Virus record (IMG/VR): IMGVR_UViG_3300027759_000457
Span: 1-22,506 of that record
DNA length: 22,506 bases
Direction: 5' to 3' (one strand)
Source: a virus
The translations under genes and the position numbers were made by a program. How positions within the stretch are numbered: the stretch's first letter is position 1; every line of letters begins with the position of its first letter. The notes beneath the pieces were generated by a model that had not been told where the DNA came from, searched no databases, and was given only the letters and a program-made list of their open reading frames with translations. Below, one piece after another: positions 14,007 to 22,462 of the stretch.

Positions 14007-15509
14007 TTAGTAATACGCAACTTTTCGTTTTGGCAAATCATAATCAGGCTCATCCGAGTTAATACGGATAAACCCGCCTTGGCGGAACCTTAAGAGGGCT
14101 TGGGACGTTGAGTCCACCAAGTCGTCATGGTCTCCGTTAGGAAAAGAAGCACACTCTTCCATTACTTCCTCCGCCCATCTGGTATTGGGACACCATACAA
14201 ACCCTGATGCAAATAAGTCTGAGATGGCGTTTACACGGGCTATCTTATCACTTCCTTTGCCTGGTGTATATTCCTGAAGCGGGATTCCCATCCGCCTCAT
14301 TTCATAAATTAATGGCGCACCCGCAGCTTTTTTCTCAATAATTAAAGTGTGAGGTTCATATTCTTTGTAAAGCTCGAATGCTTTGGCTTTTAACTCAGGG
14401 AACTCCATACGCTCTTTAAACGCATCAAGCAGGATAATATGAGCCACTTCCCGCCCTTCTGAATCGGTTTTATGGAATATTCCCCACGTGGTACAGGCGG
14501 AGTAGTCGGCACGGTTATTCTTCTCAAAGGCGGTATCCCATGACTGAATGATGTAATCACAATATGGAGGCTCGTCATCTTCCCAGATCTTCCACATTTC
14601 CCGTTTGATGATTGCGCCCTCTTCTGAGGTCGGATTCTGCTGATACTGGGCTTCCCACTTAGAAACAGGGATTTCTGCCTTGATTGCTTCTAGTTCTTCT
14701 TTTTTCCAGAATTGGGGCCAGAGCGGGTTTCCTGAAGGCATCAGCGCAGGGAACTCAATCACTTCCCATTCATCACCTTCCCGCTTAATGGAGTTGGCAA
14801 TGATCTGCCCAGTAAGGTCTCGTTTAGACCAACGGGTCATCACAATCACAATAGCCCCGCCTGGTTGCAGACGCTGACGAGGACCAGAACCATACCACTC
14901 AAAAACCCTATCGTAGACCTCTGGGTTGCCTTGCATGGCTTCTTGCTCGGAATGAGGATCATCGATAATTAAGACATCCGCACCCTTACCAGTAACCGCT
15001 CCGCCTACACCAATCGCAAAGTAATCACCACCCTTGTCTGTATTCCAGCGCCCCGCTGCTTTGGAATCCGAAGATAGCTTGGTAGGGAAGATGTCTTGAT
15101 ATTCCTGCGTATTGACAAGGTTTCGCACTTTCCTTCCGAAACCTACTGCCAGTTCTGCGGTGTGGGCGGTCTGAATGATCTTCTTCTGCGGGTATTTACC
15201 TAGGAACCAAGCGGGGAACAGATAGGAAGCAAACTCCGACTTAGTGTGTCTTGGTGGCATATTGATAATAAGACGCTTTAAAGTCCCATTGGCAACTCTC
15301 TCAAAGGCATCTGCCATATCTTTGTGGTGCTTGCCTGGTATAAACGCAGCCCACATACTATTGACGAAGGAAAGGAAATGCTCTTTGCAGCGCTCCTTTT
15401 GGTCTTCTTGCAAAATGACCTTGATCTTCGGGATCTCAGGAGAGTCCTTGGGCAGGGTGTCTAGTAAACCCCTGTAACGCTGTAACTCCGCAGTGCTTAG
15501 TAGACTCAA
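14007..15509 (-). CDS. Large terminase subunit (DNA packaging ATPase and nuclease)
   Basis: A 500-residue protein. Its start is TTG at 15509, the only start after an upstream in-frame TGA, overlapping the previous gene's stop. The ATPase half has a Walker A-type motif NMPPRHTKSE (residues 83-92) and Walker B VLIIDDPH (179-186). The nuclease half has SWDTAF (323-328), the acidic IIEKKAAG (390-397) and the late GDHDDLVD (459-466). These are the classic TerL blocks. The enzyme cuts concatemeric DNA and pumps it through the portal, which is encoded immediately downstream. The small subunit is encoded separately at 16585-17202 with several tiny genes between, a less common spacing. Confidence 0.9.
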   Translation of the reverse strand: MSLLSTAELQRYRGLLDTLPKDSPEIPKIKVILQEDQKERCKEHFLSFVNSMWAAFIPGKHHKDMADAFERVANGTLKRLIINMPPRHTKSEFASYLFPAWFLGKYPQKKIIQTAHTAELAVGFGRKVRNLVNTQEYQDIFPTKLSSDSKAAGRWNTDKGGDYFAIGVGGAVTGKGADVLIIDDPHSEQEAMQGNPEVYDRVFEWYGSGPRQRLQPGGAIVIVMTRWSKRDLTGQIIANSIKREGDEWEVIEFPALMPSGNPLWPQFWKKEELEAIKAEIPVSKWEAQYQQNPTSEEGAIIKREMWKIWEDDEPPYCDYIIQSWDTAFEKNNRADYSACTTWGIFHKTDSEGREVAHIILLDAFKERMEFPELKAKAFELYKEYEPHTLIIEKKAAGAPLIYEMRRMGIPLQEYTPGKGSDKIARVNAISDLFASGFVWCPNTRWAEEVMEECASFPNGDHDDLVDSTSQALLRFRQGGFIRINSDEPDYDLPKRKVAYY

Positions 15510-15736
15510 AGCGAGGTCATCTTCTCAACGGTTTTGTCAATCGGGACAAGACTACGGATCTTATTGGGTTGAACCTTTAAGAGTCCTCTGTCCTTGAGGT
15601 CATGAATGATGCGGTGGATATTAGACTTACTCTTCAATTTAAGACCAGTGGCTATATCAGCATAACTAGGGGAAAACCCTCGGTACTTAATAAAGTCTTC
15701 TATGAAGTGCAGAACCTCCATTTGGCGCTCAGTCAT
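15506..15736 (-). CDS. LexA-type winged-helix DNA-binding protein
   Basis: A 76-residue protein made almost entirely of a LexA N-terminal domain: MTERQMEVLHFIEDFIKYRG, then SPSYADIATGLKLKSKSNIHRIIHDLKDRGLLKVQ. This matches LexA's LT.RQ.EVL.fI....g..PS..eIa..L...S...v...L..L...G.i. There is no self-cleavage domain, so it cannot act as an SOS-cleavable repressor by itself. It overlaps the TerL start by 4 nt and the previous small gene by 8 nt. It could repress early genes or its own operon, or regulate packaging; a target among the dyads at 17235-17338 is possible but untested. The N-terminal domain identity is secure; the role is inference. Confidence 0.8.
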   Translation of the reverse strand: MTERQMEVLHFIEDFIKYRGFSPSYADIATGLKLKSKSNIHRIIHDLKDRGLLKVQPNKIRSLVPIDKTVEKMTSL

Positions 15737-15984: not shown

Positions 15985-16217
15985 AGGGGCATATAGTCCA
16001 AATACACAGGGGTGTGCTCTCCCATATAAGCTCCAAGGATATTGAACTCGAAGTACTCCATAGCTTCATCTAGGTTCATATCCCGCATCAGGATCTCAAG
16101 GATCTTATTGCGGTCATAACAAACCACTAGCAGGTCACAACGCTCCACGACTCCAAGAATGGCTTCATCAAAACCATCGAGGGTAAGGAGTTCAGGGTAA
16201 TCCTCCGCAATACTCAT
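15981..16217 (-). CDS. Conserved small phage protein
   Basis: A 78-residue acidic protein. The pattern LDGFDEAILGVVERCDLLVVCYDRNKILEILMRD, then DEAMEYFEFNILGAYMGEHTPVYLD (given in two parts) is a well-conserved phage family of unknown function, often near terminase genes. The FDEAILGV, YDR.KI..IL and EYFEFN..GA..GE.TP blocks are the ones I recognise. It overlaps both neighbours by ATGA-type junctions. No catalytic residues are obvious. A recombination or packaging-linked role has not been shown to my knowledge. Confidence 0.8.
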   Translation of the reverse strand: MSIAEDYPELLTLDGFDEAILGVVERCDLLVVCYDRNKILEILMRDMNLDEAMEYFEFNILGAYMGEHTPVYLDYMPL

Positions 16218-16357
16218 TTGAGCAGCTCCAAGGCTTTTCTGACACTTGCTATAGCACTAGTCATTTCCGCCCTTTCTTGACCCCTTAGCTCGGCTTGTAG
16301 AGCCATCATAGAAAGCACGAGGCTTTTTAACTTCTCAATCAATGCATCATTCTTCAC
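16214..16357 (-). CDS. Tiny coiled-coil phage protein (GTG start)
   Basis: A 47-residue reading frame from GTG at 16357 with AGGAG about seven bases upstream, ending in TGA that overlaps the next ATG (ATGA). The product (VKNDALIEKLKSLVLSMMAL, then QAELRGQERAEMTSAIASVR...) is a single amphipathic helix, likely a short coiled coil. Too small for most gene callers. Context and Shine-Dalgarno site support it; no family is recognised. Confidence 0.6.
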   Translation of the reverse strand: MKNDALIEKLKSLVLSMMALQAELRGQERAEMTSAIASVRKALELLK

Positions 16358-16380
16358 TTCTTGCTCCTGTTTAAACGTTC

Positions 16381-16395
16381 GTGGTATGTTACCAC
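16381..16395. promoter_or_regulatory. GTGGTA-N3-TACCAC inverted repeat
   Basis: A perfect 6-bp inverted repeat with a 3-nt spacer, next to a GTTTAAAC site (16369-16376) and about 35 bp from the parS site. Could be an operator, or a short hairpin in RNA. No binding protein can be named. Confidence 0.45.
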
Positions 16396-16429
16396 ATTGC
16401 TAAAAAAATATATATAGGGGGGTGGGGGG

Positions 16430-16445
16430 TGTTTCACGTGAAACA
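16430..16445. promoter_or_regulatory. parS: Perfect chromosomal-type parS (ParB-binding centromere) site
   Basis: The 16 bp TGTTTCACGTGAAACA is a perfect palindrome, identical to the consensus bound by Spo0J/ParB of bacterial chromosomes (TGTTtCACGTGAAACA). Chance of one specified 16-mer in 22.5 kb is about 5 in a million. It lies in a noncoding spacer (16358-16584) beside the small terminase gene, between G6-T-G6 (16417-16429) and G7 (16449-16455). No parA or parB gene is in the window, so host ParB is the likely ligand. ParB bound here could clamp and spread by CTP, anchoring or segregating phage DNA, recruiting SMC, or acting as a road-block or decoy. The match is certain; in vivo function is inferred. 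Confidence 0.85.
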
Positions 16446-16525
16446 TAAGGGGGGGTTCGTATTGGATGGGATTGTTTGTGTGGATTCGAGTGTAAGGTAA
16501 AGCACGCAAGACGTGGCGAATTGAC

Positions 16526-16545
16526 GGGGGTGGGAGTGGGTGGGG
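16526..16545 (+). other. Perfect G-quadruplex motif
   Basis: G5-T-G3-AGT-G3-T-G4: four G-runs with loops of 1, 3 and 1 nt, an ideal quadruplex on the plus strand, i.e. the template for the leftward transcript. It lies just after the small terminase stop (16585 edge) and 80 bp from parS. Together with the G-runs flanking parS it makes a 130-bp G-rich locus. Could pause transcription or replication, or mark a packaging start. Confidence 0.7.
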
Positions 16546-16584
16546 TCGCCCGCAGAGCCTTATATGACAGATCCGCAGGGTTAT

Positions 16585-17202
16585 TCACTTTCCGATTAGC
16601 GCAATAGACTTATCTAATTCTTGCTTGAGCGTGTCGATGTCGATAGCCTCGGTGACTTGCTCTGCTCTAGTCTCGAACACACCTGATGCCTTAGCCATCA
16701 ACTCTAGCGCTCTCAGACGTACGTTGATTGGGACTGCGATGTCCTCGCTATGCTTGAACCATTCGTTCATTACGTATCTGCGTGCCATGCGATCATCGTT
16801 AATGATCATCTCTTTCTTGGCTTGAGTGAGAGGTTGTAGTAGTAAAGTGATATTCGCATCTGCGAGTAAGTCGTTCACTCTCTGCTGAATCGTTGCGCTT
16901 GTCAGGTGGTCACACTTGAATGCTCCCATGTAAGCCGTTATAGGTGTCATGCCATCTATGACATTGCTTGCAAAGTTCAACTGACGTTTAGTTAATCTCT
17001 TATCCCTACCGCTTGGTTCATCAGTCTCTTCTGTGTGTAATCCATATGGCAGTCCATTACTCTTAGTCTTCACCTCTACTGATTCTATATATGACCGCCT
17101 CGCTTCGCTATCTTTCCCCCGCTTTGGAATGTCTACATCATTCTCAGGTTGCGTGTTCACATTCTCTTTAATCACATCTGCCAGTAATTCAGCTTTACTC
17201 AT
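16585..17202 (-). CDS. Small terminase subunit
   Basis: A 205-residue protein with AGGGGA before ATG. After a polar N-terminus (1-65) comes a helix-turn-helix of the TerS type: RLTKRQLNFASNVIDGMTPI, then TAYMGAF and SATIQQRVNDLL (residues 69-113). The C-terminal half ends with VRLRALELMAKASGVFE, the A.eLi.K..GvF.. block typical of phage small terminases. It should recognise the packaging start and hand DNA to TerL. It is the first gene of the leftward operon; a strong promoter lies 43-71 nt upstream. It is separated from TerL by a noncoding parS/G4 spacer and five small genes. The call rests on motif order and position. Confidence 0.75.
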   Translation of the reverse strand: MSKAELLADVIKENVNTQPENDVDIPKRGKDSEARRSYIESVEVKTKSNGLPYGLHTEETDEPSGRDKRLTKRQLNFASNVIDGMTPITAYMGAFKCDHLTSATIQQRVNDLLADANITLLLQPLTQAKKEMIINDDRMARRYVMNEWFKHSEDIAVPINVRLRALELMAKASGVFETRAEQVTEAIDIDTLKQELDKSIALIGK

Positions 17203-17234: not shown

Positions 17235-17255
17235 ACTAGCTCACATAATGAGCCT
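17235..17255. promoter_or_regulatory. Operator-like dyad, copy 1 (overlaps leftward -10)
   Basis: ACTAGCTCA-CATAA-TGAGCCT contains a perfect GCTCA-N5-TGAGC dyad (17239-17253) that covers the -10 box of the leftward promoter. A protein bound here would block that promoter. Matches copy 2 at 16 of 21 positions, with differences confined to the 5-bp spacer. Confidence 0.6.
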
Positions 17256-17273
17256 GTCGCTCTAGCTTGTCAA
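17245..17273 (-). promoter_or_regulatory. Sigma-70-type promoter for the leftward structural operon
   Basis: On the minus strand a perfect -35 TTGACA (17268-17273) is followed after 17 nt by CATTAT (17245-17250, 4/6). Transcription would begin near 17238, giving a 36-nt leader before the small terminase ATG at 17202. The operator dyad covers the -10. This is the best promoter match I found in the window. Confidence 0.7.
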
Positions 17274-17317
17274 TCCTGTTTCTGATTTGTTCACTTCTAT
17301 GTCACCTATGCAAGTTA

Positions 17318-17338
17318 ACTAGCTCATAGCGTGAGCCT
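17318..17338. promoter_or_regulatory. Operator-like dyad, copy 2
   Basis: ACTAGCTCA-TAGCG-TGAGCCT repeats copy 1 with conserved arms and an unrelated 5-bp spacer, as expected for a dimeric regulator that reads only the arms. Centre-to-centre distance to copy 1 is 83 bp (about eight helical turns), suitable for looping. A weaker half-copy (GCGAGCCT) is at 17513-17520. Confidence 0.55.
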
Positions 17339-17649
17339 TTACTACCTACCATAGATTTGCCTGATCGTCTTCGACTCTCGATCCCCCGATTGCTTAAATA
17401 TTAGGCAACTACTGTATGCCCATACATACCGCTCAAACCGATTTAAACGCTCTTAGAGACGTTTTGTGTCTACATGAGGCAAGTGCATTAGTACACACGT
17501 GAAAATGCCATAGCGAGCCTCGTCCTTATTCTATAAGGCTTGCGTGTCGGTCATCTATAAGACCTAAAAACAGGCTGAATTCATCCCTATATATAGCGTT
17601 GATTTGTGGCAATAACCCAACGAATTACTCAAGTAATTTAATCAAAGTG

Positions 17650-17680
17650 TTTACACGTTGCAATTGATTGTGTGTATACT
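17650..17680 (+). promoter_or_regulatory. Candidate promoter for the rightward accessory operon
   Basis: TTTACA (17650-17655, 5/6) and TATACT (17675-17680, 5/6) are separated by 19 nt, slightly long. The start would be near 17687, about 25 nt before the first predicted small gene. An AATTACT-CA-AGTAATT dyad lies just upstream at 17623-17638. Supported by the boxes and by position. Confidence 0.45.
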
Positions 17681-17711
17681 GTGATGTCGTATTGAGTTGA
17701 TAGGAAGTGCG

Positions 17712-17870
17712 GTGGCTAATCCACCCAATTACCCAAAGATATTTCTTAGCCCATATGTACTAGATGGTGTGCAGTCTAGGTGGCGAATGGCTCTTGTGTA
17801 CCCCCTAAACAGGGATCCGAGTCTCAGGAATGAGGGTTTTAGATATTCCATCTCATTGGACTCGCACTAA
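17712..17870 (+). CDS. Small phage protein, first of the rightward operon (GTG start)
   Basis: A 52-residue frame from GTG at 17712 with AGGA six bases upstream, about 25 nt after the predicted transcription start. The product (MANPPNYPKIFLSPYVLDGV, then QSRWRMALVYPLNRDPSLRN...) has a normal mix of aromatic, basic and hydrophobic residues and looks like a folded small protein. The start codon lies inside a GGTGG-CTAAT-CCACC hairpin (17711-17725), which could regulate initiation. No family is recognised. If not real, this stretch would be an unusually long untranslated leader. Confidence 0.5.
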   Translation: MANPPNYPKIFLSPYVLDGVQSRWRMALVYPLNRDPSLRNEGFRYSISLDSH

Positions 17871-17903
17871 GCACCCACCTACCTATAGGGGCTTGACCTG
17901 AGT

Positions 17904-17933
17904 CTAAGAGGATGCAATCTCGCATCTACTTAG
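17904..17933 (+). promoter_or_regulatory. Leader hairpin touching a Shine-Dalgarno site (copy 1)
   Basis: CTAAG-AG-GATGC-AATCTC-GCATC-TA-CTTAG folds into two 5-bp stems with a 2x2 internal loop. Its last base is the first G of GGAGG (17933-17937), which serves the ATG at 17942. The GATGC...GCATCTA.CTTA...GGAGG pattern is repeated at 18316-18345. It could protect mRNA or tune initiation. Confidence 0.55.
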
Positions 17934-19085: not shown

Positions 19086-20579
19086 TTGAATATTCCAAAA
19101 ACTATCTCTCTGCTCCCACGTACTGTGGTACAGGCGGTGCTTGATCAGCATGGCTCTAAACTTTCCCCGCCAGTAGCGTTTACTGGTGATCCAATCGTTG
19201 ATGACAAGGCGATTACCGCCTTGATCACTCAGACTAATTCGCAAACCCCCGCCATTCTCACCATCGATCAGGTGCGTGCCACCAAGCCATCGGCTATCTC
19301 CCAAGCGGGTGTGCCTGACGATGTACGCAAGGCGGTCTACGATGCCCAAGCCAAGGTGGATCAAGCCTTAGCCCAAGTCGAGACCCTCCGCACGACTGCT
19401 GACAGATCCCTTGATTCTGCGTTGCAACAGTCAACACAGATCGCCAAGGACTTCAAGACCTTGACAGATCGTTTAAACGTCAAGATCGATGCAGTAGAAA
19501 AGCCTGATGCCAAGGTGATTGAAGACACCATTCGCACCGAGGTGTCCAAGCTATTCGCCTCATTCAAAAAGACCGCCACCAAGGAAGTGTTGGCTCAGGT
19601 GGCTCAGTCAGTACCGAATGTCAAGCGTGTCAAGGTCAAGAATATATTCGATGGCGCACTCAGCTACGAATATGGTGGCGAGACCATCGACTTTGCCAAT
19701 CTTGAAGTTGAGGTGTGGGGTGACCCATCCGCTCCCGCACGTGTCGATGACTACGTCTTCGATCCTAAGCATTTGCATCAAGCCTTGGTTGCTTTGGACG
19801 ATCAACTCCCTGACAACGTATGGCTTGCGGGTGAGCGTGGTACAGGCAAGACCGAGTTCGTCACTCAGCTTGCTAACCGCCTCGGACGTAGGTTGTTTCG
19901 AGTTAACTTCGATGAGGCAATGGAGCGTGCCGAGTTCATCGGTGGCAACACCATCAAGGACGGCAACGTGGTGTGGAAAGCGGGTGTCATCACTCAAGCT
20001 ATCCAACATACTGGTGCGCTGATCATCCTCGATGAGGTTGGCTTTGCAAGGGCGCAGTCAATTGCAGTACTGCACTCGCTCTGTGAGCGTAGCCCACACC
20101 GCTCGATTGTTATCGCTGAAACTGGTGAGCGCATTGCAGTTGCCTCGCACGTTGCCTTTTTCTGCGCTGATAACTCAAATGGCTTTGGCGATCAGTCAGG
20201 TAATTTTGCGGGTGTGCGTGATCAAAACACCGCATTCATTGATCGCTTTGGTTACACGTTGCGCTTTGAGTACTTGCCCTTTGCCGATGAGGTCTCGCTT
20301 GTGTCCAAGCGTACTGGCTTGCCAGTAGATGCCTCCGAGGTGTTGGTCAAGTTCGCCACAGTTGCACGTGAGAAAGCTAAGGCGGGTGTGCTGACTCAAC
20401 CACCAAGCCTACGTCAGTTGTTCGCTTGGGCTAGAGCAATCACCAAGGGTGTGCCTGTTGGTATCGCATTCGAGAATGCAATCATCAATAAGTTCCCTAG
20501 TGACTGCGAGGCTGAGTTGCGTGGTGTCTTCTCTGCCACCATCGATGTAAACAATCTCAAATCATTCCTAACTAAGTAA
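19086..20579 (+). CDS. MoxR/CobS-type AAA+ ATPase
   Basis: A 497-residue protein starting at TTG with GGAGG six bases upstream. Residues 1-200 are a mixed helical region with coiled-coil-like stretches (85-170). Residues 240-400 form the AAA+ core: Walker A GERGTGKT (249-256), Walker B ALIILDEVG (311-319), sensor-1 ADNSNG (361-366) and an arginine-finger-like DRFGY (386-390). The order and EFIGGNTI/VVWKAGVITQAI inserts match CobS and other MoxR relatives, which pair with VWA proteins to remodel complexes or insert metals. The partner VWA protein is encoded two genes on. No cobalamin pathway genes are nearby, so a cobaltochelatase role is unlikely. Extra N-terminal region is longer than in CobS (about 330 residues in total). 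Confidence 0.85.
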   Translation: MNIPKTISLLPRTVVQAVLDQHGSKLSPPVAFTGDPIVDDKAITALITQTNSQTPAILTIDQVRATKPSAISQAGVPDDVRKAVYDAQAKVDQALAQVETLRTTADRSLDSALQQSTQIAKDFKTLTDRLNVKIDAVEKPDAKVIEDTIRTEVSKLFASFKKTATKEVLAQVAQSVPNVKRVKVKNIFDGALSYEYGGETIDFANLEVEVWGDPSAPARVDDYVFDPKHLHQALVALDDQLPDNVWLAGERGTGKTEFVTQLANRLGRRLFRVNFDEAMERAEFIGGNTIKDGNVVWKAGVITQAIQHTGALIILDEVGFARAQSIAVLHSLCERSPHRSIVIAETGERIAVASHVAFFCADNSNGFGDQSGNFAGVRDQNTAFIDRFGYTLRFEYLPFADEVSLVSKRTGLPVDASEVLVKFATVAREKAKAGVLTQPPSLRQLFAWARAITKGVPVGIAFENAIINKFPSDCEAELRGVFSATIDVNNLKSFLTK

Positions 20580-20588
20580 GGAGGCTTT

Positions 20589-21647
20589 ATGTTAGCAATC
20601 AATGCTAAACGTGGTGTCGAGTCTACTGTCGAGCGTGTCTTCAATTCGACAGGCAATGCATTCTCCAAGCTACAAGTACTGTGGACTGGATCTACTGCGG
20701 GCATCATGTTTAAACGTGGTAGTGTTGGCGTGGATGCCAAGATCATTTTCCCCGCCATCGATGAGGGTGCGGAGATGAAACGCTCCACCTTTAATAACTT
20801 GATCGGCTATGCAATCCACGAATTAGGTCATGCATGGTTTACCGCTAATGAGCCTTGGGATAAAGCCCGCAATGAGCATGGTCAATTCGTTGGTAACTTG
20901 ATCAATGGTCTTGAAGATCCCCGCATCGAGCGCAAGGTAATCGAATCAGGCTATGCCCCGAATTCAAAGGCATTGTTTGAAGAGTTGCTTAACTCGATCC
21001 TCAAAAAGAATGGTTACGTTGAGGCTGACGATCTAAAGAATGTCCCATTCCTCCTTGCTGTGGAGGGAAGACGTTTAAACGGCTATCAGGTTGACGTGCC
21101 GAGCATTGTTGATGATGCCCCTTGGTCTGCTGATTTACGTTGGGCTTTAGCTGAGGCGCAGTTAGCATCGAACACTCATCGTATTGCAGAGATCGCAATC
21201 GAATTGTTCAAACGTCTTAATGACTTCGAGCCTGAGCCTACCGAGGGTGAGGATGAGGGCGAGGGTGAAGAGGGCGAGGAGCGTGGTGGCTATCCTATCA
21301 AGGGTGACAAGCCTACTGAAGATGGCGAGGATGGTCAGGGTAATGAGCCTACCGACAAGCCTACCGAGGGTGACGATCAGGGCGGTGACAAGGGCGGTCA
21401 GGGTGACGAGAAAGGCTCTGAGGGAGGCGATCAGCCATCCGATGGGGGTGAGCCTACCGATGAAAACAAACCCGCTGAAGAGGGCAAAAAGAATGGGGGC
21501 GGTAAGGACTTTGCGGGTGGACGTAATGTCGAGCCTAATGAGTTTATCGAGGGTGAATTAAACGATCAGAAGACTAATCTCAGCAAGCGTTTAGATCATC
21601 GTCCCAGTTCAGCTAAACCAACATATGCCACTTTCGAGTGGGTCTAA
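20589..21647 (+). CDS. HExxH protein with acidic linker (CobT N-terminal-like)
   Basis: A 352-residue protein with the GGAGGCTTTATG start cassette. Residues 1-205 are a folded domain with IHELGHAWF (HExxH at 77-81) and, after a helix, NGLEDPRIERKV (Glu109 or Asp110 as likely third ligand), the arrangement of a gluzincin-like metalloprotease. Residues 213-310 are a Gly/Glu/Asp/Pro-rich acidic linker with repeated EPTEG and GDKG blocks. The C-terminus (NLSKRLDHRPSSAKPTY) leads to the next gene. CobT has the same order (N-terminal domain, acidic linker, VWA) in one chain, so this and the next gene look like a split CobT-type protein. Protease activity is inferred from the motif only. Confidence 0.75.
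   Translation: MLAINAKRGVESTVERVFNSTGNAFSKLQVLWTGSTAGIMFKRGSVGVDAKIIFPAIDEGAEMKRSTFNNLIGYAIHELGHAWFTANEPWDKARNEHGQFVGNLINGLEDPRIERKVIESGYAPNSKALFEELLNSILKKNGYVEADDLKNVPFLLAVEGRRLNGYQVDVPSIVDDAPWSADLRWALAEAQLASNTHRIAEIAIELFKRLNDFEPEPTEGEDEGEGEEGEERGGYPIKGDKPTEDGEDGQGNEPTDKPTEGDDQGGDKGGQGDEKGSEGGDQPSDGGEPTDENKPAEEGKKNGGGKDFAGGRNVEPNEFIEGELNDQKTNLSKRLDHRPSSAKPTYATFEWV
21218..21505 (+). repeat. Degenerate repeats coding for the acidic linker
   Basis: Short imperfect units around GAGCCTACCGA and GAGGGTGA / GGCGGTGAC recur through this stretch, coding for the Gly/Glu/Asp-rich linker. Slippage or unequal exchange could change the linker length. Repeats seen; length variation is inferred. Confidence 0.6.
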
Positions 21648-21655
21648 GGAGATAT

Positions 21656-22462
21656 ATGCAAATCAATAAAGTTAACGCACAGATGAATTACTCTGTCGAA
21701 TTTAACTCTGAGCCTAGTGGCTTAGGCGCAACCAAGGCTACGATCCAACGCATCTTGCGTAGTCTTGATCTTGTCGGTTGGAATACGCATGAGGAGACAG
21801 GGCGGTTAGATCGCAAAGCGTTTACACGCTACGCAACAGGCGGTACTGCGATCTTCTCTAAACGTCATCACGTTGAGGCGCAAGCCTCTGCGGTCACAGT
21901 ACTGATTGACTGCTCGGGATCGATGAGCAATGGGCGCAGAATTCAAACCGCTCAGTCAGTTGCGATCCAGTTAAGCAAGATGCTTGACAAGGCAAACGCA
22001 TCATTCAATGTAGTTGGCTTTCAAGGCGGTCAGGGTGGCTTACGTCAGAATCCTACTGGTGCTAGTAACAAGACTATCGACTCACTCATTGAGTACACCG
22101 AGTTTATCCCTTTCAAGGGATGGGCTGAGTCGTTGACCAAGGCATCTGCCAAGCTTGGTGCTATTCGCTACTGCGCCAATAACTCAACACCCGACTACTC
22201 TGCCTTGACCATGACCTTGGAAGACTTGAGCAAGCGGGAAGAGCAACGTAAGATCCTGTTCTTTCTGACCGATGCTGACTCATATACTAGGTCTCATATG
22301 ATTCACGTCCAAAGTATTGCCGACAAGCTAGGTATTAAAATAATAGCCATCGGTATCGGCAACACCGATGTTGAGCAATGTTTCAAGATCGCTCAGAATG
22401 TAGAGAATGTCAGCGATCTAGCAGATGCATCGTTCGGCAAACTACTTAAGGAGTTGCGCTAA
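21656..22462 (+). CDS. VWA-domain protein (CobT C-terminal-like)
   Basis: A 268-residue protein. I chose ATG 21656 with AAGGAGA just before it; an earlier ATG at 21638 would overlap the upstream gene. A lead-in of 80 residues (RLDRKAFTRYATGGTAIFSK) is followed by the VWA core: AVTVLIDCSGSMSNGRRI (MIDAS DxSGS at 85-89), FNVVGFQGG, ILFFLTDADSY and IAIGIGNTDV near the end. The DxSGS metal site and the TD block are those of CobT and MoxR-partner VWA proteins. It starts 8 nt after the acidic-linker gene, with which it probably forms one functional unit, and it should bind the ATPase at 19086-20579. No membrane segment, so cytoplasmic. The final target is unknown. Confidence 0.85.
   Translation: MQINKVNAQMNYSVEFNSEPSGLGATKATIQRILRSLDLVGWNTHEETGRLDRKAFTRYATGGTAIFSKRHHVEAQASAVTVLIDCSGSMSNGRRIQTAQSVAIQLSKMLDKANASFNVVGFQGGQGGLRQNPTGASNKTIDSLIEYTEFIPFKGWAESLTKASAKLGAIRYCANNSTPDYSALTMTLEDLSKREEQRKILFFLTDADSYTRSHMIHVQSIADKLGIKIIAIGIGNTDVEQCFKIAQNVENVSDLADASFGKLLKELR

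Follow-up and report, generated by a model that had tools for sequence, protein, structure and literature searches.

A chromosomal-type parS palindrome conserved in the terS-terL spacer of a phage group as a putative loading site for host ParB

In the noncoding spacer between the terminase genes of a viral DNA fragment (22.5 kb, linear; hereafter the window), from a phage represented by environmental sequence only, we found the palindrome TGTTTCACGTGAAACA, which is identical to the ParB/Spo0J parS optimum at all 16 positions and is, on comparative grounds, very probably a ParB site under selection. No other match was present in the window even when up to three mismatches were allowed, with 0.05 expected from shuffled sequence. 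The identity to the parS consensus claimed in a sequence-only reading of this DNA was confirmed, and the site proved unique. The explanation we favour, at somewhat better than even probability, is that host ParB loads in cis on the phage DNA and has a DNA-organising role in the lytic cycle.

The site and its surroundings are summarized in Table 1. Two open reading frames (ORFs) overlap the palindrome, 16354-16509(-) and 16400-16588(-), and both look like chance ORFs. On the minus strand the palindrome is flanked by C-tracts and a T-rich stretch, whose conservation is limited to close relatives. The 47-aa ORF that follows the site is found in most, but not all, of the relatives carrying parS. 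The position in a noncoding gap on the terS side, as described in the sequence-only reading, was upheld, although a larger ORF-free gap, one of 672 bp, is present at 17240-17911. This larger gap, located upstream of terS where its operon and the rightward one diverge, is devoid of ORFs of 60 aa or more and is a possible promoter or origin region. Further to the right, a CobS-like AAA ATPase (19086-20579, +) is paired with a CobT/VWA protein (21638-22462, +), with a possible peptidase-like ORF between the two. DnaA boxes were not enriched.

Table 1 Features of the window at and around the parS-type site.
Feature	Position	Strand	Basis
parS-type 16-bp palindrome TGTTTCACGTGAAACA, putative host-ParB loading site	16430..16445		exact, unique, footprint kept in relatives
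terS-terL noncoding spacer	16358..16584	-	terS stop at 16585 to GTG start at 16357
terS, terminase small subunit	16585..17202	-	phrog_51, E=1e-7
terL, terminase large subunit	14007..15509	-	PF17289, E=5e-11; relatives found
47-aa ORF, first gene past the site, GTG start 16357	16214..16357	-	family searches: no match
LexA-type winged-helix protein, 76 aa, directly upstream of terL	15506..15736	-	PF01726, E=2.9e-14

Viral contigs were scanned with the window terL, and 80 relatives were kept. A site with zero to two mismatches was located in the terS-terL spacer of all 24 window-subgroup records that hold both terS and terL (the window and 23 relatives), and was absent from the spacer of 28 sister-group records. 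Across 26 sites dereplicated by flank, about 19 of them from the window's clade and the others from more distant relatives, information content averaged 1.79 bits per column over the 16 site columns, compared with 0.21 and 0.25 in the 40-bp flanks; admission of sites at up to two mismatches somewhat inflates the value inside the footprint. The scan of relatives that the sequence-only reading had proposed thus found the 16-mer retained at the terS-side spacer while its flanks diverge. Most window relatives have a single site at one location. Two further candidates were set aside: a 2-mismatch match in L181, which lies inside a LexA-like gene, and the parS-like sequence TGCTCCATGTGGAACA, conserved in L184, L187, L193 and L199 and apparently inside an ORF.

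The remaining variation is itself of the parS type. It falls mainly in columns 1, 5 and 12, the last two of which correspond to the T/C and A/G positions in parS, and a few sites also differ at 8, 11 or 16; most of the variation among the relatives' sites obeys the ParB degeneracy TGTTYCACGTGRAACA. The commonest phage form after the exact sequence, TGTTCCACGTGAAACA, is the native B. subtilis parS within parB (PMC4333373). This pattern bears on two alternative functions of the palindrome. As a perfect palindrome with a 6-bp stem it is able to fold, and could in principle act downstream of terS as an RNA hairpin or a terminator; this reading was rejected as having a negligible probability, because the common variant C5/A12 cannot form the stem, an Rfam scan of the window gave no match, and the site was not reported by a terminator scan of the window. 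It could also be the operator of a phage-encoded DNA-binding protein that reads a parS-like palindrome by chance, for which the LexA-type winged-helix gene just upstream of terL offers a candidate. Almost every near relative with a record extending that far has this gene, and it occurs alike in relatives with and without parS, making it an unlikely cognate binder. As an unrelated operator would not be expected to track the parS variants TGTTYCACGTGRAACA, and as searches of the relatives revealed neither ParB_N nor a ParB-type HTH, we regard a phage-encoded binder as very improbable.

Mapped onto a TerL tree with 121 rows, 37 with and 84 without the site, the parS label requires 10 changes, whereas shuffling gave a mean of 31.8, a comparison in which the rows were sampled by terL, near-copies favour clustering of the label, and the positives L177, L243 and L349 rest on 2-mismatch matches. 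The site is thus inherited within clades, with several changes of state. It is not essential, since 84 of the 121 relatives are without it, among them HTVC023P, a phage of the same host strain as the isolate HTVC027P described below, in which no match within two mismatches was present. A search of the parS-minus clades for a replacement palindrome yielded none that was widely shared.

The claim that the window encodes neither parA nor parB was borne out: neither gene was seen among its ORFs, and the 11 of these that were scanned against protein families yielded no ParB or ParA. Because the window is only a fragment, relatives were needed to judge the absence of a phage parB. ParB_N was absent from 18 relative records, among them complete isolate or reference genomes from the wider family (59.8, 61.5, 57.6, 60.9 and 65.0 kb), as well as a record of 62 kb from the window's own clade. 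Likewise, no ParB-type HTH or ParA-type ATPase was found in the relatives searched, complete isolates included, and no tyrosine integrase in 21 relative records. Among site-bearing records, which are fragmentary, ParB_N was detected in 0 of the 33 that bear terL and in 3 of 50 others, a second sample of 50 giving 4.

The distribution of the site extends well beyond the terminase relatives. The exact 16-mer was found in at least 120 IMG/VR viral-contig stretches, whereas three control palindromes matched to it in composition gave 1, 7 and 1, and the variant TGTTCCACGTGAAACA likewise in at least 120. In the other loci, ORFs beside the site gave matches to portal, terminase, head and replication families, which is what phages would be expected to show. 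In the 120 exact-match loci listed, 67 of 146 sites (46%) lie outside ORFs of at least 60 aa, where 10% would be expected. Of these 120 loci, 34 contain a relative of the window terL, and 16 of the 47 sites in the 34 terL-bearing loci fall between -100 and +26 bp of the extrapolated terL start, a preference that could partly mirror where compact genomes have gaps. Other sites are kilobases away from terL, and position is variable.

This location raises the alternative of local transcription or packaging control, whereby spreading ParB would repress or time the terL operon, or mark or protect the packaging region. The site separates terS from the operon on the terL side, ahead of that operon's first gene, and in other phages it is often just upstream of terL; P. 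aeruginosa ParB is reported to repress promoters adjoining parS (PMC5521831). However, the varying position, with some sites kilobases from terL, and the lack of a sigma-70 promoter match near the site in a scan of the window argue against such control, which we consider distinctly unlikely.

Arrays occur in some viral records. L043:10535-11462 and L016:2657-3444 (about 0.9 and 0.8 kb) each have five exact parS sites with unrelated flanks, an array group located near the terL of a distant terminase (29% terL identity). Twelve sites, eleven of TGTTTCACGTGGAACA and one of TGTTTCACGTGAAACA, again with unrelated flanks, are spread over about 5 kb in L086:8906-13878, part of a 116.7-kb viral record of 65% GC; several of these seemingly coincide with gene boundaries. 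ParB_N was not found in the L016, L043 or L086 record. In L513 and L514, which are similar to the multi-site loci, the stretches read held no site. Arrays of 5 to 12 sites suit at least as well a ParB decoy, in which the many parS copies of a replicating phage would draw host ParB off the chromosome origin, disturbing segregation or freeing resources, and the integrative element SGI1 indeed destabilises its helper plasmid through parS copies (PMC10954446). Yet pure titration predicts neither the single site nor the one location seen in most window relatives, and a decoy function is, in our estimate, improbable though worth retaining. A preferred place combined with usually one copy instead favours a role in cis, as does the possession of a site by several phage lineages.

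If host ParB acts in cis, the host chromosomal protein would recognise the phage 16-mer during infection, load there as a CTP-dependent clamp and spread across the terS-terL region. The resulting ParB cluster, perhaps together with host ParA or SMC, would organise or position replicating phage DNA by the packaging genes during the lytic cycle. On chromosomes it is established that ParB loads at parS as a CTP-dependent clamp, spreads and recruits SMC (for example PMC7053999, PMC8299390, PMC4333373); for the phage, we infer ParB binding, clamp loading and a benefit. Since 17 of 17 ParBs assayed favoured parS over NBS, the Noc site (PMC7383237), recognition of the phage site would be expected in a host that possesses ParB.

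A cultured example is provided by Pelagibacter phage HTVC027P, in which CGTTTCACGTGAAACA is located at 16412-16427, within an intergenic gap of 291 bp annotated between gp31 and gp32, about 0.6 kb from terS. The host group of this phage is SAR11, where the single-cell genome AG-404-L13 pairs ParB with a matching parS: ParB is encoded at C2:16209 and the exact 16-mer lies at C2:17947, about 1.5 kb apart. A Burkholderiales metagenome-assembled genome (MAG) similarly holds ParB plus two exact sites 1-2 kb off. Assignment of a host to the window from MAG co-binning of relatives was abandoned as unreliable, the bins spanning many phyla, and a GC-skew analysis, in which parS fell close to the skew minimum of one 62-kb relative but not of HTVC027P, led to no conclusion about an origin.

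HTVC027P, the best-studied carrier, is described as obligately lytic (PMC12753301; PMC11066056), a lifestyle that speaks against partitioning over the long term. Together with the failure to find a tyrosine integrase or ParA in the relatives searched, this disfavours the plasmid-like persistence that the sequence-only reading had listed among the possible outcomes, while its proposal that a host-type parS could recruit host ParB gained support from the conserved spacer site and from the absence of a detectable phage parB. More broadly, we give an even chance to the view that several phage lineages, obligately lytic ones included, have independently acquired host centromeres and use host ParB, perhaps with SMC, lytically. 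Should this be so, there would be a link between phage infection and the machinery of bacterial chromosome segregation in a family with abundant marine pelagiphages, and parS in metagenomic contigs would be an unsafe marker of chromosomal origin regions. As cultures exist of both HTVC027P and its host HTCC1062, with an infection time course published (PMC12753301), involvement of host ParB is directly testable.

A search of the open-access literature, with subscription papers and bioRxiv preprints mostly outside its scope, returned no description of a host-type parS standing alone in a phage, in keeping with the earlier statement that no such case was known beside phage terminase genes. Compared with known systems, the site shares with the chromosomal parS of ParABS-SMC both the 16-bp sequence and the tolerated substitutions, and as a 16-bp palindrome matching TGTTTCACGTGAAACA within the known degeneracy it is of the chromosomal type; it differs in being phage-borne, in a terS-terL spacer rather than by a bacterial oriC, with no parA or parB found. 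Extrachromosomal prophages such as P1 and RedRock also have parS on phage DNA, but these encode ParA and ParB, use parS sequences of their own and serve lysogenic maintenance (PMC7157519), whereas the parA-parB pair that marks a phage-encoded ParABS was found neither in the window fragment nor in the relatives. The nearest precedent is, by analogy, the hijacking of a plasmid ParABS by SGI1, whose parS mimics are bound by the IncC plasmid ParB, making SGI1 more stable and the plasmid less so (PMC10954446). SGI1 is likewise a mobile element with a lone parS mimic and without its own ParAB, exploiting the system of another replicon, the arrangement that the phage site appears to share. SGI1 is, however, an integrative element that targets a plasmid ParB and expresses a helper protein, Sci, whereas the site described here matches chromosomal ParB and is borne by phages, of which one is described as lytic.
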